This document shows, piece by piece, positions 8,191 through 63,691 of a stretch of 64,000 nt of DNA. How positions within the stretch are numbered: the first letter of the stretch is position 1; the number at the start of each line of letters is the position of its first letter. The notes under the pieces are model-generated. The model saw only the letters and a program-made list of their open reading frames with translations. It made no database searches and had not been told where the DNA came from. Source of the stretch: Bacteroides salyersiae WAL 10018 = DSM 18765 = JCM 12988. GTDB lineage: Bacteria > Bacteroidota > Bacteroidia > Bacteroidales > Bacteroidaceae. The position numbers and the translations under genes are program-made. Where the stretch lies: positions 1 through 64,000 of the forward strand of contig NZ_KB905466.1 of the NCBI RefSeq assembly GCF_000381365.1. The letters are read 5' to 3'.

Positions 8191-8241
8191 TTTCTTATAT
8201 TTAATACCTATAAGATCCAACTAAAGTATACGCTCTTTCAT

Positions 8242-9318: not shown

Positions 9319-9330
9319 AATTGTACTTTG

Positions 9331-9735
9331 TTATTCAATTGTGTATATTATTGTATCCTTTGGATCGTAGAGTTTATCAGTATAAGCCAAGAGGATAAAA
9401 TTTTTATCGCTATTGTTCACCACTACATGAGCCACATTATTAGGAATGAAAACTGTGATAGCCTTTTCCAAAGACATCTCAATATCCAATCGTTCGTGAG
9501 TCTCCATATCCTCCAATTTGAGGATAGCCACCCCCTCAATGATAGTGAACCACTCGACAGCCTCAGGATGGTAGTGACCACCCTTTGTCTGCTTTGGTTT
9601 ACCCATGGTGAGATAAACTTCTCCAGTGTGAGAAGGAATGCCTTCTTCTGTACCAGTGATGGCTTTCAAAAACCAACCTCTATCATCAGCTATCAATCGA
9701 CGTTGGATGACATGAACTTTATCAATCTGAGCCAT
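9331..9735 (-). CDS. Cupin sugar epimerase/isomerase-like protein
   Basis: A small cupin (134 residues from the ATG at 9735; a GTG at 9750 would overlap rfbF). The centre has the metal-binding pattern GGHYHPEAVEWFTIIEG, and DDRGWFLKAITG near the N-terminus resembles the C-terminal cupin of CapF and other WxcM/FdtA/RmlC-like sugar enzymes. It lies between rfbF and rfbG. It is therefore a good candidate for a C3 (or 3,5) epimerase or ketoisomerase acting on the CDP-4-keto-6-deoxy sugar, which would allow a CDP-6-deoxygulose-like product. Family membership is seen; the reaction is inferred. Confidence 0.72.
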   Translation of the reverse strand: MAQIDKVHVIQRRLIADDRGWFLKAITGTEEGIPSHTGEVYLTMGKPKQTKGGHYHPEAVEWFTIIEGVAILKLEDMETHERLDIEMSLEKAITVFIPNNVAHVVVNNSDKNFILLAYTDKLYDPKDTIIYTIE

Positions 9736-9739
9736 AGTA

Positions 9740-10564: not shown

Positions 10565-10865
10565 ATTGTTGAGTTTTGAATTATCCTTAAAAAACATGTA
10601 TCACAACGAATGGAGTTATATCATGTGCGGAACAATCATTGAACCAAATATCCGCACGCTTTATGGAAATTGTTAACTATTTACTCGTATTGATTTTAAA
10701 TGGAGAAGCATGTATGGTATCGAACCATAAGCATTAGCTCCGCCCGTGCACTAAGTACTCAATTTAGAGTATCTCCTTTGTATAGACATTTTTACGAGTG
10801 CCTATATATTGAGTTGTTAAAGATTTGACCTATTTGTTAACCATTGGCATATTGCCAATCCGATT
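10565..10865. other. Gap between rfbF and IS66 remnant
   Basis: About 300 bp with no convincing ORF and no -33/-7 promoter facing rfbF. Transcription of the sugar genes therefore probably comes through from the invertible promoter upstream of upxY. I searched for an inverted copy of the IS66 terminus seen at 11,650-11,672 and did not find it, so the other end of the element seems lost. Confidence 0.4.
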
Positions 10866-11237
10866 TTATCTAAATACAGGCTGAAAAAAATCTCCGCAAC
10901 TATTAAATATTTTAGTAAAAAACTTACCTAAATACTCCCAGACAGACCGTCCTTGCATCTTCACCGTACTGACGATACTGTGGTAGGTAACCGCCATCTC
11001 CCCCTCCCTTTCGTACCGCCGAAGAGAAGCATCGCGTTGCTCTGGGTAATCAAAGGGCGAGTATGTAAAAAGTCGTATTATATGACGGCCACGAAACATT
11101 ACGATGAACAAGTTACCGTCATTCGGCTAACGATGAAGCTGCTCACGGATGACGGACAACACATGACTGTGCTTGCAACACATATCGGTAAACTCACGTA
11201 AGTAATAGAAACGATTTATTCTTGTGACACTCAACAT
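10866..11237 (-). pseudogene. Degenerate IS66 tnpB fused to transposase C-terminus
   Basis: From the ATG at 11,237 the frame reads like IS66 TnpB (FYYLREFTDM, VLSVIREQLHR). It then meets an in-frame TAG at 11,127-11,129 and continues in the same frame as TnpB-like sequence (LFIVMFRGRHIIRLFTYS). It passes into a segment typical of the extreme C-terminus of IS66 transposases (VTYHSIVSTVKMQGRSVWEYL). Most of tnpC is missing, so an internal deletion has joined tnpB to the tail of tnpC. Not functional. Confidence 0.75.
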
Positions 11238-11269
11238 AAGCTCTCCAACTTCTCTATCAGAGCCTTCAG

Positions 11270-11593
11270 CTACTGATAGCTTACATTCTTCCGGATTATA
11301 TGAAGACCATTGGTCACGCGCAACTCCACGAGTATACGAACGGAAGAAGTCTTTGCTTCCGTCGATGATGGTTCTTGTGAATGCCTTTCCTCCTTCGGCT
11401 TTTCTTGAGACGAGGATGGAAAGCCATCCACCTTTATTTCCACTAGCTTGTTGCGCATATCCTTGTACCATTTGTAGAAGATGTTGTAAAGTACTTTGTT
11501 ACGTGAACAGAACTGTTCTACAGAGATAACCTTAAACATAACCTCCGTTTGATGCTGGAAATAGAATCTTACCAAATCTTCGCTGCTGTACAT
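11270..11593 (-). pseudogene. IS66 accessory protein TnpA-like, truncated
   Basis: A 107-residue frame beginning MYSSEDLVRF with the IS66 accessory HTH-like pattern (SVEQFCSRNKVLYNIFYKWY) and ending NGLHIIRKNVSYQ. Full-length relatives normally continue for about 20 more residues after this point, so the end is probably truncated. The first 68 bases of the window contain the start of the same gene. Confidence 0.7.
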
Positions 11594-11715
11594 AATATGA
11601 TAAAATGTTCAACTGAGAATGTATAGCCATAAAATTTAAGCCCTGATTTAAGTACTAACCAAAAGTCTCCAATTTCCACCTGCAATATAAAAAGTATGTC
11701 GCAAACATTCAGTTC

Positions 11716-48472: not shown

Positions 48473-49081
48473 TTATAAATCTTTCACATCGCTCAACTCA
48501 ACCAGCTTATTCACAATAGCATAGATCGTTAAGCCGGCAGCACTGTGTATTTGCAATTTCTTGCTGATATTCCTACGATGAGTAATGACCGTATGTATAG
48601 ATAAAAACAATTTCTCTGCTATCTCCTTATTTGTCATTCCCTTCACTACGCAAATTACGATTTCTTTCTCCCGCTGGCTAAGAGTTTCCTGTCCGTCTCC
48701 TTCATCATCGGGTGCAATATTCTGCAAACGGATAATCTTATTGGAGAGCGTTTCCAAATCATCAAAAATAGAGATGGAATCATCGTATTTACTCAATAGC
48801 GTGGCATCGATAAACGAGCTTACCAATGCCACAACCCGGATACCTTTTCCAGTTGTTTCTTCACGGAAACGAGCTACATCAAAATAATCACCGAATGTGG
48901 GATTCACTACCAATATATCGGGATATTGCGTACGCAAACAATCATGCAGGGCTTCGACGGACAAAAGCTCTACCGGCTGAATTTTCAAATTGGGCAAACG
49001 TTTCAACGCTAAAGTAAGCCCGCTACGGATAATCACAGAATTCTCGGCAACAGCTACCCGGATTGTCTCATTATTTTTCAT
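48473..49081 (-). CDS. LuxR-type regulator with degenerate receiver domain
   Basis: A 202-residue protein with a receiver-like N-terminal domain (about 5-125) and a GerE/LuxR HTH (about 130-195, LSQREKEIVICVVKGMTNKEIAEKLFLSIHTVITH). The expected phospho-acceptor Asp is Asn60 (ILVVNP) and the N-terminal acidic pair is reduced to one Glu (AEN), so classical phosphorylation is unlikely. It overlaps the hemerythrin gene by 11 nt and is co-transcribed with it. A signal from the di-iron protein, or another ligand, may replace phosphorylation. Confidence 0.88.
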   Translation of the reverse strand: MKNNETIRVAVAENSVIIRSGLTLALKRLPNLKIQPVELLSVEALHDCLRTQYPDILVVNPTFGDYFDVARFREETTGKGIRVVALVSSFIDATLLSKYDDSISIFDDLETLSNKIIRLQNIAPDDEGDGQETLSQREKEIVICVVKGMTNKEIAEKLFLSIHTVITHRRNISKKLQIHSAAGLTIYAIVNKLVELSDVKDL

Positions 49082-49775
49082 GATCCATCATCCTCCTTTC
49101 CAAATTCAGAATAGCAGGAACAAATATATAATCCTCTACCTTGCAATGCGATTCGAGTCCCTCCTCACAAGCATAGATATCAAACAAGGCAGCATTAAGC
49201 AAATTCGTATTCGCTTTGGCCGGACAATATTTAATAATGATGTTCTTCAACTCCGTCAACTTCTCTCCCACCTGATCGTGATGTTTCGAGAAAGTGCTGA
49301 TCTGATAATTTTTCGGCGCATTGTTCTGAAGCAAAGCATCTACATACTTAAATACGGTTTTTTCTTCGTATTCCATATGTTTGCGTACTTCACGCATATA
49401 TTCGTCGAAAAATTTCAATATAAGAAAAGAGACATCATTTTCCGAACAATCGATGGCTTCCAGCAGCTTACGCCGAATGGCAGGCAGACAAAAATCAAGG
49501 AAATAGATGTGGGCTTGGCGCAAATAGTCTACCAATGCCGGGATAGATAACTCATCCGTTTCTCCATCCATGCGTGAAAAGCCTTCGGCCATAAAATTCA
49601 CCACGACAAGAAAAGTACGGCAATCCACCCCGTTCATTTCACAAACCTCCTTCACGGTTTTATCACCGAACCCCAACGAAAGCCCAAAACGACTCATAAC
49701 CTGCAATAAAGAGTAATTATCACTGATAAGATCAATCATTTTATCAGAGGGCTTGTATTTTTGTAATCTATCCAT
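49071..49775 (-). CDS. Hemerythrin-like di-iron protein (RIC/ScdA-related)
   Basis: A 234-residue protein. The N-terminal part (VMSRFGLSLGFGDKTVKEVCEMNGVDCRTFLVVVNFM, about 24-60) resembles the ScdA N-terminal domain. The C-terminal part has hemerythrin-type ligands spread over four helices (YLRQAHIYFLDFCLP, RKHMEYEEKTVF, KHHDQVGEKL, ESHCKVEDYIFVP). RIC/YtfE proteins repair iron centres after oxidative or nitrosative damage. It starts at the ATG at 49,775. A shared operator-like motif lies at its promoter. Confidence 0.85.
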   Translation of the reverse strand: MDRLQKYKPSDKMIDLISDNYSLLQVMSRFGLSLGFGDKTVKEVCEMNGVDCRTFLVVVNFMAEGFSRMDGETDELSIPALVDYLRQAHIYFLDFCLPAIRRKLLEAIDCSENDVSFLILKFFDEYMREVRKHMEYEEKTVFKYVDALLQNNAPKNYQISTFSKHHDQVGEKLTELKNIIIKYCPAKANTNLLNAALFDIYACEEGLESHCKVEDYIFVPAILNLERRMMDHEK

Positions 49776-49800
49776 ATTATACCTATTATATATTACGAGT

Positions 49801-49850
49801 GCAAAGAAACGGATAATTTCGCGCGCGCGCAATCCCCATTTATAGGTATT
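49801..49850 (-). promoter_or_regulatory. Hemerythrin promoter with shared operator and CG run
   Basis: Leftward, TATAAATGGGGATTG ends at the -33 position (ATTG, 49,834-49,831 region). A 20-nt spacer contains an alternating CG run (49,820-49,830), and then comes TTTCTTTG (49,808-49,801), a near -7 box. AATCCCCATTTATAGGTATT (49,831-49,850) is an AATnCC/GGnATT dyad. Confidence 0.55.
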
Positions 49851-51326: not shown

Positions 51327-51833
51327 ATGAGTAAGATTGGTGTTTTTTACGGTTCAACAACAGGAACCACAGAGGATGTAGCTCGCAAAATTGCAGAAAA
51401 GCTGAATGTTCCTCAAGGAGATATCCACGATGCTTCGACATTGACCGATGCATTGGTTAAAGAATACGATGTGCTGGTGCTGGGCACTTCAACTTGGGGC
51501 GCCGGTGAATTGCAGGACGACTGGTATGATGGTGTCAAGGTTCTGAAAAAGGCAGATCTTTCCCATAAATTCGTTGCTCTGTTCGGTTGCGGAGATTCCG
51601 ACTCATACAGCGACACATTTTGTGACGGCATCGGTATTCTGTATGAAGATTTAAAAGATACCGGCTGTACATTTATCGGAATAACAGATACGGCCGGATA
51701 TACTTTTGATGCGTCTGTAGCGGTAGTAAACGGTAAATTCGTCGGACTCCCCATTGATGAAGTGAACGAAGACAGCCAGACCGACCAACGTATCGAGCAA
51801 TGGGTAGAAGGACTTAAAAAAGAAATCAACTAA
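51327..51833 (+). CDS. fldA: Flavodoxin
   Basis: A 168-residue long-chain flavodoxin, an FMN electron carrier that replaces ferredoxin when iron is scarce. The FMN phosphate loop GSTTGTTEDVA (about 8-18), the LGTSTWGAGELQDDW loop (near 56-70) and FALFGCGDSDSYSDTFCDGIG-like isoalloxazine loop (near 88-108) are intact. It starts at the ATG at 51,327, 28 nt after the -7 box. It is followed by DUF2023 in one transcript. Confidence 0.95.
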   Translation: MSKIGVFYGSTTGTTEDVARKIAEKLNVPQGDIHDASTLTDALVKEYDVLVLGTSTWGAGELQDDWYDGVKVLKKADLSHKFVALFGCGDSDSYSDTFCDGIGILYEDLKDTGCTFIGITDTAGYTFDASVAVVNGKFVGLPIDEVNEDSQTDQRIEQWVEGLKKEIN

Positions 51834-51902: not shown

Positions 51903-52265
51903 ATGGCTACCGAAAGAATCATTCCCGGCGAAGTACGGATTTTCCTAAATCATATTTACGAGTTTAAAAAAGGAGTTCGCAACATGGTGCTCTACACAAT
52001 GAACCGTGAATATACAGAATTTGCCATACGCCGTCTGGAAAATCAGAATATCAGCTATACGATACAAGAAGTAGGAACGAACAAAATCAATTTGTTCTTC
52101 GGCAAACCGGAGTGTATGGAGGCCATACGCCACATTATCACTCGTCCGCTGAACCAACTGACACCTGAAGAGGATTTCATTTTGGGAGCTATGTTAGGAT
52201 ACGATATCTGCCAGCAATGTAAGCGATATTGTGGGAAAAAAGAAAGTATTAAGATTGCTGTTTAG
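51903..52265 (+). CDS. DUF2023 protein, flavodoxin-linked
   Basis: A 120-residue DUF2023 family protein. It has an alpha/beta pattern (RNMVLYTMNREYTEFAIRRLE) and a C-terminal Cys cluster (YDICQQCKRYC) that could bind a metal or be redox-active. DUF2023 genes often follow flavodoxin genes, as here (69-nt gap). No function has been established; an accessory to flavodoxin redox or metal handling is inferred from position. Confidence 0.82.
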   Translation: MATERIIPGEVRIFLNHIYEFKKGVRNMVLYTMNREYTEFAIRRLENQNISYTIQEVGTNKINLFFGKPECMEAIRHIITRPLNQLTPEEDFILGAMLGYDICQQCKRYCGKKESIKIAV

Positions 52266-52310: not shown

Positions 52311-52348
52311 AGAAGCCGTTTCATTAGGGGGAACGGCTTCTTTTTTTT
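52311..52348 (+). terminator. Intrinsic terminator after DUF2023
   Basis: A 10-bp perfect stem AGAAGCCGTT/AACGGCTTCT followed by eight T. It separates the flavodoxin unit from the porin operon. Confidence 0.9.
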
Positions 52349-52367: not shown

Positions 52368-52448
52368 AATTACCTATTAATACTGAGACTCGTGTCAATA
52401 TTCATTATTTATAGGTATTGTCCGCCTTTCCATTCGCTTCTATCTTTG
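52368..52448 (+). promoter_or_regulatory. Porin operon promoter with shared operator dyad
   Basis: AATTACCTATTAATA (52,368-52,382) and TATTTATAGGTATTG (52,406-52,420) are imperfect inverted halves spanning 53 bp. The right half contains the -33 box (ATTG, 52,417-52,420). After 20 nt comes TATCTTTG (52,441-52,448). The arrangement parallels the flavodoxin promoter. Confidence 0.75.
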
Positions 52449-52472: not shown

Positions 52473-53774
52473 ATGAGAAAATTAACAAGCTTATTTATTC
52501 TCTGCTTCCTGTTATCATTCGGTAAAGTCACCGCACAGGAAAAAAGCTCAGTACAAGAAGAAAAGAGCTCTTATACAGAAGAATACGACAAATTCCGTTT
52601 TGGCGGATACGGTGAAATGGCGGCAAGCTATAAAGATTATGATTTTAACCGTTTTAAACATTCCAGCGGTTCTCCGAAAAGAAACAGAGGTGAAATCTCC
52701 ATTCCTCGTTTTGTATTGGCCTTTGACTACAAGTTTTCTCCCAAATGGATACTCGGTTCAGAAATTGAATTCGAATATGGAGGTACAGGAGTAGCCCGTG
52801 AAATTGAATGGTTCGAAGAAAACGGAGAATACGAAACCGAAATTGAAAAAGGCGGAGAGGTAGCTCTCGAACAGTTCCACATTACACGTCTCATCAACAA
52901 ATATATCAATGTTCGTTTCGGACATATGATTTTACCGGTAGGACTAACAAATACACATCACGAACCTATCAATTTCTTCGGAGTATACCGTCCGGAAGGC
53001 GAAACAACCATCTTACCGTCAACCTGGCATGAAACCGGTGTGGCTATTTTCGGAGAAGTGGGAAAATTCGACTATGAGTTTCAAGTAGTAAACGGTCTCG
53101 ATCCACAAGGATTTCGAAGTGAAGACTGGATCTCCAATGGAAAACAAGGAGCTTTTGAAATCAGTAATTTCACGAGTCCGGCTTTCGTAGGACGTATTAA
53201 TTACAATGGAGTAAAAGGCTTACGTGTAGGCGTTTCGGCCTATTATAATAAAACAGCGAAAAACGGAACAAAACCGGATCGTAACAATGAATATGATTTT
53301 CCGGTAACCATATTTACCGCCGACATGCAATACAAAAGTCCGAAAAACAATCTCATCGTACGTGCCAATGCCGTATACGGGCAATTGGGAGCAAGTGCGG
53401 CACTTAGCACAATCAACAATAGTTCCTCCGGTGCTTCCGGTTATCCCAATACAACAGTTGCTAAAAACGCAGTCAGCTATGCAGCCGAAGCCGGATACAA
53501 TATAGGCGCTTTCTGGGGCTCCAAAGCACCCCGAATCTATCCTTTCATGCGCTATGAATACTATAATCCGATGGAAAAAGTAGAATCAAGCAGCCAATTG
53601 GCCGACAAGCGTTTCCAATCTTCGGTTATTACTGCAGGACTAAACTATTATGCACTCCCTAATCTTGTTATAAAAGCCGATTATTCCAATCGCCGGATCG
53701 CATGGGGGAAATATAATAATGAAAATACAGTATCAGTAGGCATTGCTTACATCGGCTGGTTCATCAAGAAATAA
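52473..53774 (+). CDS. Outer-membrane porin
   Basis: A 433-residue beta-barrel protein with a signal peptide (1-21, ending KVTAQ), a short linker, and alternating amphipathic strands throughout, ending in an aromatic residue-rich strand (VSVGIAYIGWFIKK). FRFGGYGEMAASY near the N-terminus and ALEQFHITRLINKYINVRFGHMILPVG are typical of phosphate-selective (OprO/P-like) or related porins. It is the first gene of a seven-gene operon and probably admits a small substrate, perhaps an iron or heme complex. Confidence 0.85.
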   Translation: MRKLTSLFILCFLLSFGKVTAQEKSSVQEEKSSYTEEYDKFRFGGYGEMAASYKDYDFNRFKHSSGSPKRNRGEISIPRFVLAFDYKFSPKWILGSEIEFEYGGTGVAREIEWFEENGEYETEIEKGGEVALEQFHITRLINKYINVRFGHMILPVGLTNTHHEPINFFGVYRPEGETTILPSTWHETGVAIFGEVGKFDYEFQVVNGLDPQGFRSEDWISNGKQGAFEISNFTSPAFVGRINYNGVKGLRVGVSAYYNKTAKNGTKPDRNNEYDFPVTIFTADMQYKSPKNNLIVRANAVYGQLGASAALSTINNSSSGASGYPNTTVAKNAVSYAAEAGYNIGAFWGSKAPRIYPFMRYEYYNPMEKVESSSQLADKRFQSSVITAGLNYYALPNLVIKADYSNRRIAWGKYNNENTVSVGIAYIGWFIKK

Positions 53775-53808
53775 GAGTATAATATCAAATCACAAAATTT
53801 AAAATAAA

Positions 53809-54990
53809 ATGAAAAAGAGAAGTTTATTTCCAATCCTGTTGATAGGATTCACTTTAGGATTAACATCCTGTAATGAAGATTCTAAGAAAGAAGACATCAC
53901 CACCAATCCGTTTGCCAATCTTCCGGCAGATAGTGGACAAAAACCTACCACTGAACAAATGGATGCAGCGATAGCCAATTTTGTCGATAATGTCGCAATA
54001 CCGACTTATGCCGAATTAGTAAACAAAATGACTCTCTTAAAAAATGCAGTCGACAAATTCATTGCAAGTGGAACTAAAACCGACCTTGAAAATGCTTGTG
54101 ATGCCTGGAGAGATGCCCGTAAGCCTTGGGAAGAAAGCGAAGCATTTCTGTTTGGAGCTGCCGACAAAAAAAGCTATGACCCAAGCTTGGATAGCTGGCC
54201 TCTCGACAAAGAAGGTATAGACCAAATTCTGGAAACAGGTAACTGGGACGCCATCGAAGGAGATGTAAATGAAGATGAAAGTGCTGTAAATCCTCCACAA
54301 AATTTACGTGGTTTCCATACTGCCGAATATCTGCTTTTCAATGAAGGTGATGCACGCGATATCGCCGACTACACCAACAACATGAAAATTTATCTACAGA
54401 AAGTAGTAACCCGTATGCTCTCTGACGTCACCAATATGCACAAAGGCTGGACAACCGGACTTCCCGGAGATGAAGATCTTCCTACGGCATACGGAGCTGC
54501 CTTGAAAGAACATAACGGCACATACGGTATCAGCAGTATTTATGTAGCTATCGAAACGATGTTGAATGACAACAACGGAATGGCTGCAATCGCCAATGAA
54601 GTAGGTACCGCCAAGATCGCCGATCCTGTAAACGCATGGAATAGCGGTGATAAAGAAGGTGGCGTACTTGCTGTGGAATCATGGTACAGCTGGAACTCAC
54701 TGACAGATTATGTAGACAACATCGTCAGCATCAAAAACTGTTACTTAGGCGGACGCAATGGTGAATACAACGAAGCAGAAAGCCTTTCAGCACTCGTCAA
54801 AATCATAAATCCGACACTTGACCAATTAATTCGTCAGCAGATAGAAGATACAATGGATGCTATCAATGATATTCCCAAACCCTTCCGTAACAATCTGGGC
54901 GCAAGTGTAGAAATCAAAAAAGCACAAAATGCATGCGCTTATCTAAACACTGGTCTGGGACTCGTAAGAGGTAAACTGGCATCCAATTAA
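53809..54990 (+). CDS. Imelysin family lipoprotein (M75, iron-related)
   Basis: A 393-residue lipoprotein (lipobox LGLTSC, Cys21) with two imelysin-type helical bundles. The signature GxHxxE is visible as G168-F-H170-T-A-E173 (LRGFHTAEYLLF). In family members such as IrpA, ICMP and EfeO-like proteins this domain binds iron or heme and is induced by iron limitation. It lies between a porin and a di-heme oxidoreductase, as imelysin genes often do. The exact ligand is not predictable. Confidence 0.92.
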   Translation: MKKRSLFPILLIGFTLGLTSCNEDSKKEDITTNPFANLPADSGQKPTTEQMDAAIANFVDNVAIPTYAELVNKMTLLKNAVDKFIASGTKTDLENACDAWRDARKPWEESEAFLFGAADKKSYDPSLDSWPLDKEGIDQILETGNWDAIEGDVNEDESAVNPPQNLRGFHTAEYLLFNEGDARDIADYTNNMKIYLQKVVTRMLSDVTNMHKGWTTGLPGDEDLPTAYGAALKEHNGTYGISSIYVAIETMLNDNNGMAAIANEVGTAKIADPVNAWNSGDKEGGVLAVESWYSWNSLTDYVDNIVSIKNCYLGGRNGEYNEAESLSALVKIINPTLDQLIRQQIEDTMDAINDIPKPFRNNLGASVEIKKAQNACAYLNTGLGLVRGKLASN

Positions 54991-55014
54991 TGAAATGAAC
55001 GAAATACATACAAT

Positions 55015-56484
55015 ATGAAAATTAGCTTATTCATTCCCCTAAAGAATAGAGCTATCAGCACCATATGGGGATGCAGGAGCCTTACCGGAGCTTGTATCCT
55101 CTTTGGTACGTTGATAAGTTATACACTACAGAGTTGTGACAATCAACTTGATGATAAGCTTATACTGAAACCTAACGGTGAACCGGCACTCCCTGCCGAA
55201 CTGTCTGCCGGATATTCTACCATATTCTCTTCATCACCAGATGCATACGACACGAATGCAGACTGGGTTACCGGAGAACTTCTGACACGCTTTAACAGAG
55301 GAGACGGCCTGTATGACGGTTCACGCGGAACAGGAAGCAACACAGGCGGAGGATTGGGACCAGTATATGCTGGATATTCCTGCGGAAGTTGCCATAAAAG
55401 TACCGGTCGTACCAAACCGGCCCTTGCCGACGGCGGTTCGGGCAACGGATTTTCGTCCATGTTAGTGTATATCAGCCGCAAAACCGGAGGATACTTCCCG
55501 GAGTACGGACGTGTATTGCACGATCAATCCATCTATGGTGTAAAAGCAGAAGGAAAAGTAAAAATAACCACTACAACACAAAAATTCCGTTTTCCGGATG
55601 GCGAAGAATACGAACTGATGACTCCGCATTACGAGATCTATCAATGGTATGCCGACAGCATTCGCCCGGAGGATTTGCGTATCAGTGTACGCCAGCCCCT
55701 ACGTCATGTAGGGTTAGGCCAAATGATGGCGCTCGATCTCGACGAGTTGCAAAAAGTGGCAGCCAAAAGTAATTATCCCGAATACGGTATCAGTGGACGC
55801 CTGAATTATATCACTGAAAAGGGCGTAAAACAGATCGGATTATCGGGTAATAAAGCACAACATGCCGACCTCACCGTAGAACTCGGATTCTCATCGGATT
55901 TGGGGGTAACCAACGACCGTTATCCTCACGAAGTCTGTGAAGGTCAAAGTCAGATGATGGGATTTTCCAACTACGGGATTCAGATATCCACTGAAGACAT
56001 GGAAAATGTAGATCTTTATATGCAGGCTTTGGGCGTACCCGCACGGCGCAATGTAACAGATGAAACTGTACAAAAAGGAGAGAAACTCTTCCACCAGGCA
56101 AAATGCCATTTATGTCATGTCACTACATTACACACCCGTCCAAGAGGTTCCAAACTTCTGAACAACACCCAGTTACCCTGGTTGGGCAGCCAAACGATTC
56201 ATCCCTATTCCGATTTCTTATTGCACGACATGGGAACAGAACTGAATGACGATTATACCAGTGGCCTGGCTACCGGATACGAGTGGAGAACTACTCCTTT
56301 ATGGGGAATCGGACTGCAGGAGACAGTTAACGGACATACTTATTTCCTGCACGACGGACGCGCCCGCAATCTAACAGAAGCTATCATGTGGCATGGCGGC
56401 GAAGGTTCTGCCTCACGCACTCTTTTCTCACGGATGAGCAAAGAAGAACGTGCTGCACTCATCACTTTTCTTGAAAGTTTATAA
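55015..56484 (+). CDS. Di-heme oxidoreductase lipoprotein (DUF1111, thiol oxidoreductase-like)
   Basis: A 489-residue exported protein with an N-terminal signal and lipobox-like TLQSC (Cys41) and two c-type heme motifs, C123-G-S-C-H127 and C364-H-L-C-H368. It belongs to the DHOR/DUF1111 family, which accompanies imelysins in other bacteria and is thought to act in extracytoplasmic redox reactions linked to iron uptake. The C-terminal YFLHDGRARNLTEAIMWHGGEG motif is a family hallmark. Heme attachment probably depends on the CcsBA protein encoded at the end of this operon. Confidence 0.93.
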   Translation: MKISLFIPLKNRAISTIWGCRSLTGACILFGTLISYTLQSCDNQLDDKLILKPNGEPALPAELSAGYSTIFSSSPDAYDTNADWVTGELLTRFNRGDGLYDGSRGTGSNTGGGLGPVYAGYSCGSCHKSTGRTKPALADGGSGNGFSSMLVYISRKTGGYFPEYGRVLHDQSIYGVKAEGKVKITTTTQKFRFPDGEEYELMTPHYEIYQWYADSIRPEDLRISVRQPLRHVGLGQMMALDLDELQKVAAKSNYPEYGISGRLNYITEKGVKQIGLSGNKAQHADLTVELGFSSDLGVTNDRYPHEVCEGQSQMMGFSNYGIQISTEDMENVDLYMQALGVPARRNVTDETVQKGEKLFHQAKCHLCHVTTLHTRPRGSKLLNNTQLPWLGSQTIHPYSDFLLHDMGTELNDDYTSGLATGYEWRTTPLWGIGLQETVNGHTYFLHDGRARNLTEAIMWHGGEGSASRTLFSRMSKEERAALITFLESL

Positions 56485-56505
56485 TCAGATAAAAAACAAC
56501 AACAA

Positions 56506-57735
56506 ATGAAAAAGCATACATTTGCAGCCGCTTTATGCGGATTGCTAACCTTGACATCCACTCACCTGTCAGCACAGGAGGTAGACGATAAATATGTAGA
56601 AAACGATGTGGTATCCCTGGCAGGGAAGAAAGGATTTTCTTTCAGCACTAAAGCCGGTGATTTCCTCTTCAAACCTTATGCATTGGTACAGGCCAGTGCC
56701 TGTCTCAACCGATATGATGATCTCGGACTCGAAACTCCTTATGCCGATAACATCGCCAATACCGGTTTTGCCATTCCAAACGCCATATTGGGATTTACCG
56801 GAAAAGCATTCGGAAAAGTGACTTTCAACCTTTCCATAAATGCAGCTAAAAGCGGCGGAGCCCTGTTACAACAAGCTTGGTTTGATATTGCAATGAAAGA
56901 GTCTCTCCGAATCCGTGTAGGTAAATTCAAAACACCTTTTATGCATGCATACCTCAGCACATTGGGCGAAACCCTGTTCCCGGTACTTCCTACCTCCAGT
57001 ACGGCAACAGTCGTTCTTCCCTACGATCTTCCCTATGTCAACCCCAATTTTGCCACAGGTTTCGATTTGGGTATACAGTTACATGGGTTGATCCATGGTA
57101 AATGGAATTATCAAGTAGGCATTTTCAATGGTACGGGTGCAGATGTAAACGTTGCCTCCAAAACCATGTGTGATGATCACAAATGGTTGCCAGCTTTACT
57201 CTATTCCGGACGTTTTGCCTACATGCCCAAAGGTGAAATGCCCGCTTCACAGGGTGACCCCAATAATCTGAAAAGCGATAAAATGCTAATAGGCGTATCA
57301 GCATCCTATAATGCTGAAGCAGAATCCAAGAGTAGTAGCGATCTGCGGGTCGGAGCAGAATTTGCCATGATGAAAAATCGCTTCTATCTGGCAGCCGAAG
57401 CTTATTACATGAACATGCATTTCACTAAAATCCAGAACAAATCAGATGACATGAATTTCTGGGGCGGATATGTACAGGCCGGATATTTTATCACCTCCAA
57501 ACTGCAAGGTGCATTACGCTATGATTTCATGGATCGTAACGGATTAGATACCGGTGGACTGCTAAACATGCCCGCTATAGGTGTAAACTATTATTTCTTC
57601 GGAAACAATCTGAAATTACAAGTGATGTACCAATACATGGGACGTACGGGAGACAATTCTCAGAATGACCGTGATGAAGCCGGTATCGGTCTTGCCCGCC
57701 ATAACGCTACTGCTATGTTGCAATTTACTTTCTAA
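56506..57735 (+). CDS. Second outer-membrane porin (OprO/P-like)
   Basis: A 409-residue beta-barrel protein with a signal peptide (1-24, ending LSAQE). FKPYALVQASACLNRYDD begins the barrel, SLRIRVGKFKTPFMHAYLST and a central TGFDLGIQLHGLIHGKWNYQVGIFNGTGADVN block are typical of phosphate-selective porin O/P relatives, and the last strand ends in Phe. It differs strongly from the first porin, so it is not a recent duplicate. It lies 21 nt after the di-heme gene. Confidence 0.88.
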   Translation: MKKHTFAAALCGLLTLTSTHLSAQEVDDKYVENDVVSLAGKKGFSFSTKAGDFLFKPYALVQASACLNRYDDLGLETPYADNIANTGFAIPNAILGFTGKAFGKVTFNLSINAAKSGGALLQQAWFDIAMKESLRIRVGKFKTPFMHAYLSTLGETLFPVLPTSSTATVVLPYDLPYVNPNFATGFDLGIQLHGLIHGKWNYQVGIFNGTGADVNVASKTMCDDHKWLPALLYSGRFAYMPKGEMPASQGDPNNLKSDKMLIGVSASYNAEAESKSSSDLRVGAEFAMMKNRFYLAAEAYYMNMHFTKIQNKSDDMNFWGGYVQAGYFITSKLQGALRYDFMDRNGLDTGGLLNMPAIGVNYYFFGNNLKLQVMYQYMGRTGDNSQNDRDEAGIGLARHNATAMLQFTF

Positions 57736-57744
57736 ACAAGAACA

Positions 57745-58458
57745 ATGAATTCTATTTTAAATATAAAAAACGGTTTATATATCCTTGCCGCATTATTCAT
57801 TATTTCTTGCGACGAAGGAAAAATATATCCTGATGACACAGTGGATTCAGGCCGGACAGCCACTGTTACCCTCACCTTCGACGGACTGGGAGCATGGCCT
57901 AAAAAGAATTATCTTTCACTGGCTGCCATCGGAGAAGACGGCTCAACAATCACACTGACCAAACGAATCAACAAACCGTCTAAAAGTGATCAAAAGGTAA
58001 CCATCCGACTGAACAATCTAAAAGAGAATACCAAAAGCATAGATATAGCTGTTATCAGTAACGGACAAAGCTTAATCTATTCATATTACTCTTTTCCGAT
58101 TGACAACTCAATGGAGACAATAACGCTTCCTATCGAAAACTTAAATCTGGCAAGTTTCGATCGGATACAAAAGCAGGTTTTCGAAACCAGTTGCATAGCA
58201 TGCCATGGAGGAAGTACCCATATTTCGGGCAACCTCAACTTGACCGAAGATAAAGCTTACGCAGCATTAGTTAATGTAGAAGCTCCTTTATCTCCCGAAA
58301 AAAAGAAATATGTATCTCCCGGAAATGCAGAAGAAAGCTACTTAATAGACATTCTGGAAGACAACGAATATCATAAGGATATGTTCAACAGCACCGGTAA
58401 ACAAGAAATATTAGGACTGATAAAAACCTGGATAGATGCCGGGGCTGAAAATAATTAA
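57745..58458 (+). CDS. Mono-heme c-type cytochrome lipoprotein
   Basis: A 237-residue lipoprotein (lipobox FIISC, near Cys22) with a beta-sandwich-like N-terminal domain (about 35-135) and a C-terminal c-type cytochrome segment with C150-I-A-C-H154. Residues SPGNAEESYLIDIL and a final helix (LGLIKTWIDAGA) match the usual cytochrome C-terminus. No Met ligand is obvious. It starts 9 nt after the porin. It may pass electrons to or from the di-heme enzyme. Confidence 0.85.
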   Translation: MNSILNIKNGLYILAALFIISCDEGKIYPDDTVDSGRTATVTLTFDGLGAWPKKNYLSLAAIGEDGSTITLTKRINKPSKSDQKVTIRLNNLKENTKSIDIAVISNGQSLIYSYYSFPIDNSMETITLPIENLNLASFDRIQKQVFETSCIACHGGSTHISGNLNLTEDKAYAALVNVEAPLSPEKKKYVSPGNAEESYLIDILEDNEYHKDMFNSTGKQEILGLIKTWIDAGAENN

Positions 58459-58464
58459 AACCAT

Positions 58465-59616
58465 ATGGACTATAAAAAGTATATAAACGAAGATAATAAT
58501 ACCATAACAGATTTATCGGAATTTATTTGTGATAACGGAGTTTCGGAATACCAGGTAATGATACACATCACCCAGCCGAACCTCACCTATCAAGAACAAC
58601 TCGCCGGTATATTAAATACTTTCACCAACTTACTGACAGGTGAATTGAAAGGTGCCACTGCCGTATTCAAACGTTATTTCCTCAGCGATGCCGCCAATCA
58701 AGCGGATACGCTGCTGGCATTGACAACCGAATATTCCGATTGTGCCCTCTCCGTTGTGGAACAACCTCCTCTCAACGGTACCAAAATCGCACTGTGGGCC
58801 TATCTGCAAACCAACGTACAAACGCGTGTACTGCCCAATGGACTATTTGAATCGGTGCATGGCAATTACCGGCATTTCTGGAACGGCAGCGCTTTCAATC
58901 GTGCAGCGAACTCCGAATATCAAACGCGGCTATTGCTCAACGACTATGTAATGCAACTCATGGAACAGCAATGTACACTGGCAAACAATTGCATTCGTAC
59001 TTGGTTTTTCGTACAAAATGTAGACGTAAATTACGCCGGAGTAGTAAAAGCCCGCAATGAAGTATTTGTCACACAAAATCTGACAGAACATACTCACTAT
59101 ATCGCCAGCACTGGTATCGGCGGCCGGCATGCCGACCCTAAGGTAACCGTGCAAATGGATAGTTATGCAGTAAAGGGTATTTCTTCCGAACAAATACAAT
59201 ACCTTTATGCTCCCGATCATCTTAACCCGACCTACGAATACGGAGTCAGTTTTGAAAGAGGAACTTGTGTAAAATACGGTGACCGCCGCCAAGTATTCAT
59301 TTCCGGCACGGCAAGCATTAACAACAAAGGAGAGGTGGTATATCCCGGAGACATTCGTAAACAAACTCACCGGATGTGGGAAAATATAGAAGCTCTTCTA
59401 AATGAAGCCGAATGTTCATTTGATGATGTGGCACAAGCGATTGTCTATTTACGCGATCCGGCGGACCATCAAGTTGTAAAAGAAATGTTCGAACAGCATT
59501 TCCCGTGTCTACCCAAAGTTATCCTCCTTGCTCCTGTTTGCCGTCCGGGATGGCTTATAGAGATGGAGTGTATAGCAGTAAAAGCCGATCAAAATGAAAA
59601 CTTCGCAAACTACTAA
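58465..59616 (+). CDS. Two-domain Rid/YjgF family protein
   Basis: A 383-residue cytoplasmic-type protein with no signal peptide. The C-terminal third (about 270-375) is a clear Rid domain (QVFISGTASINNKGE, AIVYLRDPADHQ, and the conserved Arg in APVCRPGWLIEMECIAV). The N-terminal part (about 25-200) looks like a diverged Rid fold. Tandem-Rid proteins include chorismatase-like enzymes (FkbO/Hyg5) and deaminases. Its place between a cytochrome and CcsBA is unusual. Its stop overlaps the ccsBA ATG by one base. Reaction unknown. Confidence 0.78.
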   Translation: MDYKKYINEDNNTITDLSEFICDNGVSEYQVMIHITQPNLTYQEQLAGILNTFTNLLTGELKGATAVFKRYFLSDAANQADTLLALTTEYSDCALSVVEQPPLNGTKIALWAYLQTNVQTRVLPNGLFESVHGNYRHFWNGSAFNRAANSEYQTRLLLNDYVMQLMEQQCTLANNCIRTWFFVQNVDVNYAGVVKARNEVFVTQNLTEHTHYIASTGIGGRHADPKVTVQMDSYAVKGISSEQIQYLYAPDHLNPTYEYGVSFERGTCVKYGDRRQVFISGTASINNKGEVVYPGDIRKQTHRMWENIEALLNEAECSFDDVAQAIVYLRDPADHQVVKEMFEQHFPCLPKVILLAPVCRPGWLIEMECIAVKADQNENFANY

Positions 59617-61631
59617 TGAAACAATTCATAGTTAGCTGTTACTTGTTGATTATTGTATGTTTGGCTGCAACTACTTTTGTAGAGAAGGCTCAAGGAACCC
59701 CATTCGTCAATGAACATATTTATCATTCTTTCTGGTTCATTGCCCTATGGGGCATTCTGAGTTTATCGGCCTGCTGGTATCTGATCAAACAAAAGGTGTA
59801 CAAACGAAAAGAGATTTTCTTACTCCACGTATCTTTTATTGTCATTCTTACAGGTGCTTGTCTCACCTATTTCACCGGACAGCAAGGCGTCATACATCTC
59901 CGCCAAGACAAGGTAACCACACAGACATTCAAAAATACGGATACACAAATGGAATATCCTCTCCCATTTGCCATAGGGTTAGACACATTCTATGTCAGTT
60001 ATTATCCTGGTACGGAAGCTCCGGCAGACTATGTCAGCCGAATTTATACCGATGAAATTCCTTGCCGGAAAGCAGAAGTTTCCATGAACCGTATCTTCTC
60101 ACATCACGGATACCGGTTTTATCAAAGTTCATTCGATGAAGATTTCCAGGGCACATGGCTCAGTGTCAACCATGATCCATGGGGAATTCCCGTAACCTAT
60201 AGCGGATATGCCTTATTATTTATTTCAGCTTTATGGATACTCCTTTCCCCGAAAAGTAATTTTCGTCGGTTACTGAAGCATCCGTTGCTACAACGAATGG
60301 GGGTCGTTTTCCTCTTATGTTGCTGGGCCATTACAACCCAATCCAAGCCTATAAAACGAGAGGATGCAGATGTATACCGCACCAAACAAGTGATGTACAA
60401 CGACCGGGTGGTACCTTTTAATACACTTGCCCGAGACTTCGTTATCAAGCTGACCGGAAAAGACAATTACCAGGGATTAAGTCCCGAACAGGTTTTGCTG
60501 GGTTGGCTCCTGTATCCGGATGAATGGCAGAACGAACCGATGATACAGATCAAGAATAAAGAGCTGCAACAACGCTTAGGATGTGGTTCTTATGCCCGCC
60601 TTACAGATTTCTTCGACCGGGAGAAAGGATATCGTTTACAGGAATACTGGAACCGCCTGCATCAAAGCGGCAAACAAGATGCATTATTAAAAGCAATCAC
60701 CGAAACCGATGAAAAAATATCCCTTATCGCCATGCTGCGACAGGGGACATTGGTTCGACCGGTTCCTGATACCGGAGTCCAACGCTTGTCTGACAGAAAA
60801 ATACAAGCCGAATTACTTTATAATCAGATTCCTTTTTCAGTCATTCTATATAGGATAAATCTTATGGGAGGAATATTGCTACTCCTTTGCCAATGGAGTA
60901 AGCGCCCCTTATTCCGCTTTCGAAGTTTTCGGAGAATTACTTTCTGCCTTTTATTAACCTCTTTCCTATTCCATACCTTCGGAATGATATTACGGACGTA
61001 TATCAGTGGCCGCTTACCGATGAGCAACGGATACGAAACGATGCAATTTATGGCATGGATTATCATGTTGATAGCCTTGTGTCTGCAACACCGCTTTTCA
61101 CTAATGGCATGTTTTGGTTTCCTTCTCTCCGGATTTACATTATTAGTGGCAAGCATCGGGCAAATGAATCCACAGATAACCCCGTTAATACCGGTACTCT
61201 CTTCACCACTGCTCAGTCTGCATGTTTCACTAATCATGATGTCGTACGCTTTACTCGGCTTTATAATGTTAAATGGCATTGCTGCCATCATCTATTTCCG
61301 GAAGAACGAAGAAGAACAGGTAGAACGCCTTACTTTACTCAGTCGTATTCTACTTTATCCTGCCACACTGATTCTGGCTCTCGGTATCTTTATCGGTGCC
61401 GTCTGGGCAAATATATCTTGGGGACGTTATTGGGCATGGGACCCTAAAGAAGTATGGGCACTAATCACACTATTGATATACGGTATCGCGTTTCATACTC
61501 AAAGCATCAAGGTTTTCCGTAAACCTATATTCTTTCATATCTTCCTGATAGCAGCTTTCACAACTGTATTGATGACCTATTTTGGAGTAAACTACTTTTT
61601 AGGAGGAATGCACAGCTACGCCAACAATTAG
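59616..61631 (+). CDS. ccsBA: Fused cytochrome c biogenesis protein CcsBA (ResB-ResC)
   Basis: A 671-residue system II cytochrome c synthase with CcsB/ResB in the N-terminal half (about 1-260, with a large periplasmic part) and CcsA/ResC in the C-terminal half (about 410-671). The heme-handling WWD-type motif WGRYWAWDPKEVW is near residue 600. It would export heme and attach it to CxxCH motifs. The two cytochromes encoded just upstream are the obvious clients. The operon ends here with a terminator. Confidence 0.95.
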   Translation: MKQFIVSCYLLIIVCLAATTFVEKAQGTPFVNEHIYHSFWFIALWGILSLSACWYLIKQKVYKRKEIFLLHVSFIVILTGACLTYFTGQQGVIHLRQDKVTTQTFKNTDTQMEYPLPFAIGLDTFYVSYYPGTEAPADYVSRIYTDEIPCRKAEVSMNRIFSHHGYRFYQSSFDEDFQGTWLSVNHDPWGIPVTYSGYALLFISALWILLSPKSNFRRLLKHPLLQRMGVVFLLCCWAITTQSKPIKREDADVYRTKQVMYNDRVVPFNTLARDFVIKLTGKDNYQGLSPEQVLLGWLLYPDEWQNEPMIQIKNKELQQRLGCGSYARLTDFFDREKGYRLQEYWNRLHQSGKQDALLKAITETDEKISLIAMLRQGTLVRPVPDTGVQRLSDRKIQAELLYNQIPFSVILYRINLMGGILLLLCQWSKRPLFRFRSFRRITFCLLLTSFLFHTFGMILRTYISGRLPMSNGYETMQFMAWIIMLIALCLQHRFSLMACFGFLLSGFTLLVASIGQMNPQITPLIPVLSSPLLSLHVSLIMMSYALLGFIMLNGIAAIIYFRKNEEEQVERLTLLSRILLYPATLILALGIFIGAVWANISWGRYWAWDPKEVWALITLLIYGIAFHTQSIKVFRKPIFFHIFLIAAFTTVLMTYFGVNYFLGGMHSYANN

Positions 61632-61755: not shown

Positions 61756-61795
61756 AAGGATGAGTAATCAACCGTATCACTCATCCTTCTTTATT
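61756..61795 (+). terminator. Operon terminator after ccsBA
   Basis: A 10-bp perfect stem AAGGATGAGT/ACTCATCCTT, followed by CTTTATTTT. The flanking T/A-rich tracts suit both strands, so it may also end the convergent DUF6383 gene. Confidence 0.85.
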
Positions 61796-61822: not shown

Positions 61823-63691
61823 TTAATATACCGCCACTTTCCTATCATTTACAATATACAGCCCGGCCGGCAAACTCTTTGTCGTACGACCCTCAGGAGC
61901 TTCAAACGAAAGAATCGCCCGTCCGTCAATACCATACACCTGTACCTGACAAGCAGAAAGCGTTTCAACTATCAATTCACCTTTTCCTGCATAGGCACGA
62001 AAACCGGTATCTGCTGCCGGAGCCGAAACTATACCCGTAGACAATGATGAAATATCATGTCCTGTAAAGACACATGCGCGATAATTGTTATCACCGTTAT
62101 TTATCACATTCAGCGTCCAGTCACATCCCGGGAAAGTGGCTGTCCGGTTGGCATTCATTGCCGAAACAAGCAAATCACCGACCACTACGCCCCCTTGGGT
62201 CGCAGTACTGATCGAGTTTTTCAAGGGATAAGTTTTCAGGCTATTGCTTGTAAGATCCGTATCGAGTGTATAAAGATAAGAAGCGGCATACAGATCGTAT
62301 CCCGGAGCCAATAGATTACCATCTTTCGGAATAATATTCTCTACCTCAGTCAGTGCGCCGTCTATCATAATACCGGCTTGTACAGCACCATTTTCTGCGT
62401 TACACTTCAAAATAAAGGCACGAAGTCCGTTGGTCTGTTTATTCGGATTTTCCAGACAAACATTCTCACCATCCATAACATTACCGTAAAAGCTACCCCC
62501 CATGTACAGTTCATTACCGGAAGCAGCCAGACACATCGGCTTCATGCGTGCCCCATCCTGTGTCACCGGATGTTCTACTGTCTGCAACAGACGCGCCCAC
62601 TTTACACTTCCGTCTGCCGGAGCAATGCAAGCATAGAACAAGCAATCCTTTATACTGGGTGTCAAGCGATCGTTACCCAACATCACGGCAGACTCGCCAT
62701 CCCCTTTCATATAGCCGCTAACGTACAAATTTCCATTATCAAGAACGATATTTTTGGGAATCTCGCAACTTATCACCTGTCCTTTTGTCACTACATTCCA
62801 CTGTGCCGTACCTGCTTTATCCAATTTAACTACAAAAAGATCACCGCATGTTTTCTGTACATCACCATCCCAGCCCTCGGCATTACGGGGAGATGAAAGA
62901 TTGGCATTCCGTCCGAAATTGATGGAAGTACGATAAGTACCCGTCAGATAGATATTATCCTCTCCATCCGCTACCATATCACGCAGATCAAAATTATCAT
63001 AAAGTTTTTTCTGAGTACCACTGACGGTTACCGTTTTATAACCTACATCGATACGCTTCGTCCACTCCACTTTTCCGTCCTTACTGATCTTTGCCAACAC
63101 AGGTTGATATACACCACCATACGTCTCATAATCAGGAGCATCCCATTTGACGGAAGTCTCTACCCCATCAGCATCAACCAACTGACAAACGATGTCACTT
63201 TTATAAGTCGAACGGCTCGAATGTCTCATTTTGAGAGCAATCACTACCCCGCCATCCGAAGTAGCAGCCATCGCACCATCTGAGAATTCTCCCACATTGG
63301 TATGAATCCCCCATAGCAGATGTCCGTCTGTTCCGACTTTATAAAGTGTCATGTTATAATTACCGTTTGTCTGCAGTACATCGGGTACCCCCGTACTGGT
63401 TTTCTCCGAAGCCTTTGTGCCATCAGCAATGTTATAGAAAAAATAATCCGTTGTCAGAGAGTATCCTTTACTTACACTCCCATCCGGATCATAAGAAGTT
63501 TCTTTATCACTGGAAGCAAAGTTATTCATAAGAAACACATATCCGTCTGACGATGCTTTAATTGCCTGGGGAATCTCAAGCCCCATACCATCTTGCGAAG
63601 TTACCCATTTCAATTGGGGTTCCTGTGCAGACAGGCCGGCTACAGACAACAGACCGGCCACAGCCATTGTTAGTAATTTTCTATTCATCAT
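61823..63691 (-). CDS. Secreted beta-propeller-like protein with DUF6383 C-terminal domain
   Basis: A 622-residue exported protein (signal peptide 1-22, ending LSAQ). The middle (about 110-480) has repeated segments such as LYKVGTDGHLLWGI, LAKISKDGKVEWTKR and VVKLDKAGTAQWNV, like PQQ/SBBP-type propeller blades. The last 60 residues (YAGKGELIVETLSACQVQVY, then AGLYIVNDRKVAVY) form a DUF6383/T9SS type A-like C-terminal domain common in surface proteins of Bacteroides. Its role is unknown. It is co-oriented with the partial gene upstream (gap of 25 nt). Confidence 0.8.
   Translation of the reverse strand: MMNRKLLTMAVAGLLSVAGLSAQEPQLKWVTSQDGMGLEIPQAIKASSDGYVFLMNNFASSDKETSYDPDGSVSKGYSLTTDYFFYNIADGTKASEKTSTGVPDVLQTNGNYNMTLYKVGTDGHLLWGIHTNVGEFSDGAMAATSDGGVVIALKMRHSSRSTYKSDIVCQLVDADGVETSVKWDAPDYETYGGVYQPVLAKISKDGKVEWTKRIDVGYKTVTVSGTQKKLYDNFDLRDMVADGEDNIYLTGTYRTSINFGRNANLSSPRNAEGWDGDVQKTCGDLFVVKLDKAGTAQWNVVTKGQVISCEIPKNIVLDNGNLYVSGYMKGDGESAVMLGNDRLTPSIKDCLFYACIAPADGSVKWARLLQTVEHPVTQDGARMKPMCLAASGNELYMGGSFYGNVMDGENVCLENPNKQTNGLRAFILKCNAENGAVQAGIMIDGALTEVENIIPKDGNLLAPGYDLYAASYLYTLDTDLTSNSLKTYPLKNSISTATQGGVVVGDLLVSAMNANRTATFPGCDWTLNVINNGDNNYRACVFTGHDISSLSTGIVSAPAADTGFRAYAGKGELIVETLSACQVQVYGIDGRAILSFEAPEGRTTKSLPAGLYIVNDRKVAVY

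Follow-up and report, generated by a model that had tools for sequence, protein, structure and literature searches.

The operon at positions 52473-61631 of the Bacteroides salyersiae WAL 10018 stretch analysed here (the window: positions 1 to 64,000 of contig NZ_KB905466.1, forward strand) encodes two porin-type proteins, an imelysin, a di-heme oxidoreductase of the DHOR/DUF1111 family, a mono-heme lipoprotein (CytL), a protein earlier taken for a two-domain Rid protein and the cytochrome c synthase CcsBA. With moderate confidence, we read it as an iron-starvation system for the acquisition of iron at the outer membrane, equipped with its own CcsBA and with a chorismate-derived small molecule. 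The reading draws, among other things, on the sixth protein, which by its predicted fold looks like a chorismatase-like protein, and on a matching locus of Bacteroides thetaiotaomicron that is strongly induced under iron depletion. The link to iron, drawn in an original prediction from the DNA letters, is thus already backed by published expression; the reading has changed for the 'Rid' protein, the imelysin and the location of the system.

The operon

The open reading frame (ORF) listing of the window contains all seven genes on the forward strand, each where the original prediction had placed it, with intergenic gaps of 34, 24, 21, 9, 6 and -1 bases. Tight spacing behind one promoter and before one terminator is thereby confirmed, and the motifs that had been claimed are present in the imelysin, DHOR (CxxCH at residues 123-127 and 364-368) and CytL. 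The porin, imelysin, DUF1111 and CcsBA labels stand by their Pfam matches, PorA staying under the cut-off, and the 'two-domain Rid' label gives way to a chorismatase fold.

52473..53774, forward strand: porA, porin-like outer-membrane protein with a glutamate-rich signature at residues 97-133 (PF07396, 17.2 bits, under the cut-off of 20.9)
53809..54990, forward strand: imelysin lipoprotein, canonical (non-permuted), with the GxHxxE motif as GFHTAE at residues 168-173 (PF09375, 206.4 bits against a cut-off of 23.5)
55015..56484, forward strand: DHOR/DUF1111 di-heme oxidoreductase with two CxxCH motifs, lipoprotein Cys41 (PF06537, 210 bits against 22)
56506..57735, forward strand: porB, OprO/P-type porin (PF07396, 153 bits, over the cut-off)
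57745..58458, forward strand: cytL, mono-heme lipoprotein (CIACH at residues 150-154; PSCyt1 20.3 bits, under the cut-off of 22)
58465..59616, forward strand: chorismatase-like protein, earlier read as two-domain Rid (profile and predicted-fold match; no visible signal peptide)
59616..61631, forward strand: ccsBA, system II cytochrome c synthase (PF01578 119 bits and PF05140 52 bits, both over cut-off)
52311..52341, forward strand: intrinsic terminator closing the upstream flavodoxin-DUF2023 unit (terminator scan; fold z -4.9)
52414..52448, forward strand: promoter GGTATTG (-33) - N20 - TATCTTTG (-7) (pattern search)
61756..61788, forward strand: operon-end terminator, 10-bp stem-loop (fold z -5.7)

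The arrangement GGTATTG-N20-TATCTTTG is a Bacteroides-type promoter, and a whole-genome search for a pattern of this type returned seven sites, the porA promoter included. The consensus terminator scan did not return the operon-end terminator at 61756-61788, probably because the loop of this hairpin exceeds the 8 bases that the scan allows.

The sixth gene resembles chorismatases

The product of the sixth gene is not borne out as a generic Rid protein. A profile built from 18 of its relatives finds Hyg5 (5ag3) as the best match in the PDB (E 2.2e-20). The predicted model of the window protein (predicted local distance difference test score, pLDDT, 89; predicted template modelling score, pTM, 0.91) shows the full-length chorismatase fold, matching 5a3k, 5ag3 and 4bps with Z of 30.4-30.8 over 299-301 residues (root-mean-square deviation 2.6-2.8), whereas single Rid chains reach Z of at most 16.8. 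By title, the 50 fold matches listed are chorismatases, Rid-fold proteins and FBOX22. Residues Gly217, Gly281, Cys359 and Glu366 align with Gly173, Gly240, Cys327 and Glu334 of Hyg5 (numbering carried over from Nat-hyg5 by a constant offset of 9), so that the catalytic glutamate and the Gly, Gly and Cys of the CH-II type are all in place. In the accessible part of the source, Glu334 is the catalytic residue of Hyg5, and the Gly, Gly and Cys of Nat-hyg5 mark the subfamily that forms 3-hydroxybenzoate (PMC7170507). These four positions are invariant in the 18 relatives and are kept in 36/36, 36/36, 36/36 and 35/36 rows of a wider set. By these residues the product is inferred to be a hydroxybenzoate, most likely 3-hydroxybenzoate. 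No signal peptide is visible, as an enzyme acting on chorismate would need.

Membership of the Rid/RidA imine deaminases is not supported. TIGR00004 gives 47.4 bits against a cut-off of 106.25, and the position of the RidA catalytic arginine, which we take to be Arg105 of the E. coli protein, corresponds to residue 353 and is occupied by Phe, Ile or Tyr. Pfam PF01042 does match, over residues 274-372. A search of openly licensed PMC text for chorismatase together with Bacteroid- returned, by titles and abstract starts, no paper on such an enzyme there.

The most surprising result is that the chorismatase-like enzyme is joined to c-type cytochromes in three different contexts. Its profile has matches in 69 of the 148 genomes searched, this genome included, and 20 further loci were selected for the gene. 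Two of them (L110 and L119) are remnants or contig ends of the operon and retain cytL. In twelve others (L108, L109, L111-L114, L116-L118, L122, L123 and L125) the gene lies near cytochromes of a different kind, 18 CxNCH proteins of 486-534 residues; all eight of those tested match PD40 propeller repeats, and some adjoin DUF6057 membrane proteins. The third context is in this genome itself, a hydrazine-synthase-like cluster (L092, positions 2906-13227; contig C1, about 1970900-1981200) with a chorismatase-like protein and a CcsBA of its own. It contains an HZS_alpha domain (126 bits against a cut-off of 26.6) with CxxCH and FGE-sulfatase domains, as well as a propeller/di-heme protein that resembles the beta-gamma subunit of hydrazine synthase and stays under cut-off. 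The HZS_alpha domain occurs in 22 of the 148 genomes (again including this one) and in none of 14 control genomes. Over all 20 loci, CxxCH is found in 19 of 199 ORFs of at least 200 residues, compared with 1 of 485 in sequence flanking the operon loci; the comparison was made on greedily called ORFs, with antisense ORFs in both denominators and the dhor and cytL rows left out of the background.

A separate arrangement is seen at L115 (7540-8070), where rid-ccsBA stands behind flavodoxin-DUF2023 and none of the first five operon genes has a match.

Order and spread of the cluster

DHOR has a match in 59 of the 148 genomes, this genome included. One locus was taken from each of 55 of the 58 other genomes (G038, G042, G046 and a second DHOR locus of G043 were left out), so that DHOR is present in these 55 loci by construction. 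Gene order and presence were tallied by six-frame profile searches, greedy ORF calling having lost genes to antisense ORFs; the rows for imelysin permutation and for DHOR, CytL and CcsBA residues still derive from greedy ORFs. A further 80 named loci are the best 80 among the matches listed, and removal of three repeats leaves 132 loci in all. The lipobox, PorA-glutamate and promoter sets used below keep repeats and close relatives, and their counts are not independent events. Genes of L067 and L075 are split over frames.

Gene order is conserved in relatives, as a gene-neighbourhood check proposed with the original prediction required. The exact seven-gene order is found in 30 of the 55 loci. 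In seven it occurs without an adjacent ccsBA, in one ccsBA precedes rid, and one 4.2-kb contig carries imelysin-DHOR-porB-cytL. A shorter form, porA-imelysin-DHOR-ccsBA, accounts for 13 loci and for one more with a rid-type match upstream, while two loci have porA-imelysin-DHOR only. The complete set of porB, cytL and rid is present in 90 of the 132 loci, none of the three in 31, and one or two in the other 11, seven of which sit on contigs shorter than 11 kb. The cluster is thus a core of porA-imelysin-DHOR, often with ccsBA, which stands alone or with a porB-cytL-rid block that travels nearly as a unit. The length of DHOR was considered as a marker of the block and rejected: all 13 of the 55 loci with frames of at least 543 residues are without it, but L164, L166, L169 and L175 (546-588 residues) have it.

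Among the best 80 loci listed, the cluster is found in Bacteroides cellulosilyticus, B. finegoldii, B. xylanisolvens and B. reticulotermitis. It also appears in bins that bear the names Prevotella, Alistipes and Parabacteroides, and in further Bacteroidota, among them Plebeiobacterium and Saccharicrinis. Two genomes of the same genus have the DHOR end in common with B. finegoldii and B. reticulotermitis, which makes Bacteroides the probable genus of the window. The same set includes a DHOR-rid-porB order (L159, L168, L180, L181, L184 and L189); in its two Poribacteria loci and a number of other distant loci, matches are confined to porA, imelysin and DHOR. One locus from a Myxococcales bin (L189) has porA-imelysin-DHOR-rid-porB with 50% DHOR identity, by transfer or mis-binning. 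A viral scan with DHOR gave a single relative, at 31%.

Cytochromes, their synthase and the imelysin partner

Both predicted cytochromes keep their heme-binding motifs. Cys41, Cys123/Cys126/His127 and Cys364/Cys367/His368 of DHOR are present in 52/52 rows; the CxxCH of CytL is present in 35/35 rows, and its Cys22, Cys150, Cys153, His154 and His210 are invariant in 16. Genome-wide CxxCH counts (230 and 215, against 166 and 169 in controls) are too noisy to list cytochromes.

The ccsBA product matches 25vk_A (E 9.5e-102) and 7s9y_A (E 5.3e-100) along its length and has the marks of a system II synthase: ResB and CcsA domains, conserved histidines and the WxWD segment. His71 and His536 occur in 41/41 rows, and His627, His666, Trp606, Trp608 and Asp609 in 40/41. 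TIGR03144 taken alone stays under its cut-off (142.6 against 187.6 bits). Cytochrom_C_asm has two matches in this genome, the operon CcsBA and that of the hydrazine-synthase-like cluster; the 12 kb examined around the NrfA gene contain no CcsBA match. In all nine tested relatives without an adjacent ccsBA, a Cytochrom_C_asm (CcsA-type) gene lies elsewhere, which makes covalent heme on the operon cytochromes possible in each of them by gene content and leaves room for maturation by a synthase from outside the operon. The nitrite-reductase (nrfAH) operon of B. thetaiotaomicron with its ccsAB (BT1414-18) is down 30-36-fold without iron, and the ccsA of the matching locus is up (PMC10434189, as far as accessible). 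Operon linkage and this opposite response speak for an operon-linked synthase, as in the original prediction; its exclusivity falls with the second CcsBA.

Imelysin is found with DHOR in 55/55 loci and in 75 of the best 80 further loci listed. This pairing suits an alternative that we regard as possible but improbable, namely that the operon is a cofactor-building module in which a DHOR of MauG/MbnH type oxidises a tryptophan or tyrosine residue of imelysin to form a metal site, with the porins and the chorismatase as accessories. Trp107, Trp130, Trp214, Tyr67, Tyr174 and Tyr195 are invariant in 27/27 canonical imelysins, and the pair would be analogous to MbnH/MbnP. DHOR has no MauG or MbnH match in NCBIfam or, by sequence, in the PDB, where it finds chance matches only. 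Nor are the crystallised imelysins described as modified in the accessible part of their report, which does not state co-production with DHOR (PMC3143127).

The closest solved structure to the window imelysin by sequence is 4ecg (E 3e-131), and Cys21 is kept in all 27 canonical rows. The same operon slot is filled by permuted imelysins in 21/48 rows. In some of these (L045, L049 and L051) about 18 residues separate GxHxxE from the C-terminus, in others (L039, L048, L055 and L056) about 80, so that there was perhaps more than one permutation event in a single slot.

Iron, colitis and the promoter

Induction by iron limitation, the condition originally proposed, is supported by the locus BT2473-82 of B. 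thetaiotaomicron, which is reported as 63-324-fold up under iron depletion (69.4-323.7 in the text of that paper) and as up in colitis, with values of 14-33 for eight genes of its Table 7 (PMC10434189, accessible part). From the gene names, porA would correspond to BT2480, imelysin to BT2479, DHOR to BT2478 and porB to BT2477. The original prediction knew of no description of this module; iron and colitis induction of the matching locus are in fact published, with no function proposed in the accessible part of the paper (PMC10434189). Our search of openly licensed PMC text likewise found no function in print for the matching locus. That the locus rises in colitis, and that Pfam names DHOR a putative di-haem peroxidase, would fit a surface peroxidase that removes envelope peroxide in inflammation, iron starvation being only a cue. 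We consider this improbable: iron depletion in culture suffices for induction (PMC10434189, accessible part), and the imelysin, the glutamate-rich PorA and the chorismatase-like enzyme are left unexplained.

The neighbourhood of the operon agrees with an iron-starvation system. Upstream lie the following genes.

48473..49081, reverse strand: LuxR/GerE (CdhR-like) regulator (PF00196, 64 bits)
49071..49832, reverse strand: hemerythrin-domain partner of the CdhR-type regulator (PF01814, 53 bits)
51327..51833, forward strand: flavodoxin, in a separate upstream unit (NF006738, 213 bits; start at the second Met of the ORF)
51903..52265, forward strand: DUF2023 protein (PF09633, 161 bits)

These are the same kinds of gene as the iron-responsive BT0516-17 and BT0519-20. 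By the accessible data, BT0515-17 (quinol oxidase/DUF2023/flavodoxin) are up 37-598-fold without iron, BT0516-17 by 326- and 598-fold (326-fold for the flavodoxin BT0517), and the hemerythrin/CdhR pair BT0519-20 by 16-20-fold (PMC10434189). Hemerythrin and LuxR profiles match in 34/55 and 25/55 of the loci; for the 77 further best-listed ones the counts are 28 and 8. The two domains are fused in L053. In L058, L068, L077 and L151 a DoxD-DoxA protein lies between DUF2023 and porA (by Pfam in the L068 copy, by profile in the others). Downstream, a large ORF convergent with the operon (61823-63691, reverse strand) has a weak SBBP beta-propeller match (22.8 bits against a cut-off of 400).

The promoter region of porA carries two recurrent elements. 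TACY-N8-RGTA occurs before 42/114 porA genes (1.5 in shuffles) and is at chance before imelysin, DHOR, porB, rid and ccsBA (0-3 per set of 85-123). The half-site RGGTATTK occurs before 63/114 porA genes (2.4 in shuffles), 5/16 flavodoxin genes (0.1), 7/7 purH genes (0.3) and, within the operon, 9/118 imelysin (2.0) and 7/96 rid genes (1.7). The control for the palindrome consisted of single-base shuffles only, and the promoter profile was anchored on GTATT and the -7 box (83/124 sequences), so that those columns are invariant by construction. The spacing of TACY-N8-RGTA resembles that of NarL/LuxR-type 7-2-7 sites, and the hemerythrin/LuxR pair may bind at the porA promoter.

Probable surface lipoproteins, and porins

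Some lipoproteins of the operon may sit at the cell surface. In 109 imelysin rows, acidic residues follow the lipoprotein cysteine at +3, +4 and +5 in 60, 76 and 61%, the commonest residues by position being Ser-Asp-Asp-Asp. Acidic residues stand at +2 to +4 in 46-58% of 100 DHOR rows and at +2 in 81% of 68 CytL rows. Rows without a recognised lipobox were excluded (12/121 for imelysin, 25/125 for DHOR and 32/100 for CytL), and some of the DHOR lipoboxes may be false, as in the window protein, where the automatic pick was Cys27 instead of Cys41. In B. thetaiotaomicron, S(D/E)3 is a mark of vesicle-enriched, surface-type lipoproteins (PMC6222051, accessible part). Because the imelysins of relatives carry this surface-export-like acidic motif, an assembly on the surface appears likelier than a purely periplasmic chain.

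The hypothesis in its original form, in which a heme/iron redox chain works in the periplasm, imelysin binds metal or heme and Rid detoxifies, accommodates the cytochromes, CcsBA and the published iron induction. It is nevertheless unlikely, slightly more so than peroxide defence. Besides the acidic motifs, which leave a purely periplasmic chain without support, it is met by a chorismatase-like 'Rid' protein with Phe, Ile or Tyr in place of the RidA arginine, and by the behaviour of a related imelysin. Neither heme nor ferric ion stabilised the permuted Bacteroides ovatus imelysin, to which the canonical window protein is related, in the accessible part of the study (PMC3143127), and imelysin as a heme binder is accordingly unsupported.

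In the iron-acquisition reading, the porins would be the routes across the outer membrane. Eleven glutamates at residues 97-133 of PorA recur in 95% or more of the 121 sequences compared, which suggests a path for cations; the PorA proteins of two distant loci (L197 and L203) are without most of this stretch. That a cytochrome gene adjoins a porin gene, and that PorB weakly matches the NCBIfam model of ExtI, a porin of a selenite/tellurite reduction operon (24 bits against a cut-off of 150), might suggest a conduit across the outer membrane, in which PorB and CytL deliver electrons to ferric minerals or heme, but the operon has three CxxCH sites in all, too few for a known porin-cytochrome wire, and no multiheme partner, and the idea is very improbable.

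How the system may work

The iron-acquisition system would be switched on by the hemerythrin/CdhR-type regulator, or another iron-responsive factor, acting at the GGTATTG box. CcsBA would mature DHOR and CytL while the nitrite-reductase-linked synthase is shut down. Imelysin, and probably also DHOR, would be located on the cell surface. DHOR, fed via CytL, may shift iron, or a ligand of it, to another redox state, and imelysin may pass iron to the glutamate-rich PorA as a metal-selective pore. The 'Rid' enzyme would turn chorismate into a hydroxybenzoate, and its active-site residues make 3-hydroxybenzoate the most likely one. This product may cross the anion-type porin PorB and provide the cytochromes with a ligand, a reductant or an electron carrier. 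The DHOR/imelysin/PorA iron step and the 'Rid'/PorB hydroxybenzoate step are the least certain parts.

A number of observations weigh against this reading. The window protein falls short of the curated chorismatase models, with 43.1 against 325 bits for TIGR04444 and no PF21168 match in the Pfam scan (the paralogue in the hydrazine-synthase-like cluster does match PF21168), and it is therefore filed as chorismatase-like only. 3-Hydroxybenzoate alone is a weak iron ligand. The role of the protein may not concern iron, because five of the 20 loci selected for its gene (L120, L121, L124, L126 and L127) show no CxxCH protein and because we know of no iron link for the DUF6057/PD40 cytochrome or hydrazine-synthase-like clusters, none having been searched for. 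The structure model of DHOR is poor (pLDDT 52) and its heme pocket unreadable. The enzyme and transport roles given here are predicted functions. The palindrome has a degenerate left arm in the window, where the exact TACC-N8-GGTA is absent, and precedes only 5/67 hemerythrin genes (1.6 in shuffles) and 0/33 luxR genes. The window lipoproteins are less acidic after the cysteine (CNEDS, CDNQ and CDEG) than those of relatives. The failure of the related permuted imelysin to bind heme or ferric ion counts here too (PMC3143127, accessible part). Lastly, the B. thetaiotaomicron rows accessible to us name no chorismatase, and the match to that locus is inferred from listed products and gene order (PMC10434189).

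A bolder proposal, which we consider possible but not probable, is that under iron starvation Bacteroidota make a chorismate-derived hydroxybenzoate from this operon and employ it extracellularly, together with dedicated surface cytochromes, imelysin and a glutamate-rich pore, to mobilise iron, and that, within the order, several unrelated clusters of c-type cytochromes have the chorismatase-like enzyme as a common partner. Bacteroidota are described, in the accessible part of one report, as not known to make siderophores (PMC13142918). If the iron-acquisition reading holds, gut Bacteroides have an iron route apart from Hmu and Xus uptake that matures its own cytochromes, and they make a small aromatic compound that had not been suspected; if the bolder proposal is true as well, the common partner of the c-type cytochrome clusters stands for a new class of systems based on small-molecule electron carriers or ligands. 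The matter is of some weight, as the matching locus counts among those that a model gut symbiont induces strongly under iron depletion and in colitis (PMC10434189, accessible part). The corrected identity of the 'Rid' protein makes the reading testable by one enzyme assay.

Comparison with known systems

Four known systems bear on the operon, each compared here as far as its source is accessible. The nearest is BT2473-BT2482, which like the window operon comprises CcsA, a porin, a thiol oxidoreductase (DHOR), a peptidase M75 (imelysin) and hypothetical proteins under iron control; it also lists a fimbrillin and an HTH regulator, a chorismatase is not named there, and the locus is reported as an expression result with no function proposed (PMC10434189). 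The P. aeruginosa PA4370-73/EfeUOB-like systems share an imelysin beside a di-heme DUF1111 protein, iron regulation and, in the outer-membrane type, the absence of EfeU (PMC3143127). Compared with those imelysin-DUF1111 operons, the window operon adds two porins, a mono-heme lipoprotein, the chorismatase-like enzyme and CcsBA, and is without a second imelysin (PMC3143127). It is not itself an EfeO/EfeUOB system: NF041757 gives 25 bits against a cut-off of 270, no EfeU-type permease stands alongside, and the Pfam scan found no permease family among the operon proteins.

The FkbO/Hyg5 chorismatases (5ag3, 5a3k and 4bps) share with the window 'Rid' protein the full-length fold and the Hyg5-type residues (PMC7170507). 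Identity by structural alignment is 15-19%, under the family cut-off, and the setting differs, the window gene standing in a cytochrome operon instead of a polyketide cluster. Finally, the CdhR hemerythrin/LuxR regulators of Bacteroidales are of the same gene kind as the pair that adjoins the window operon and many of its relatives, split or fused; at the window the pair is known as neighbouring genes, and its binding to the promoter is putative (PMC10434189).

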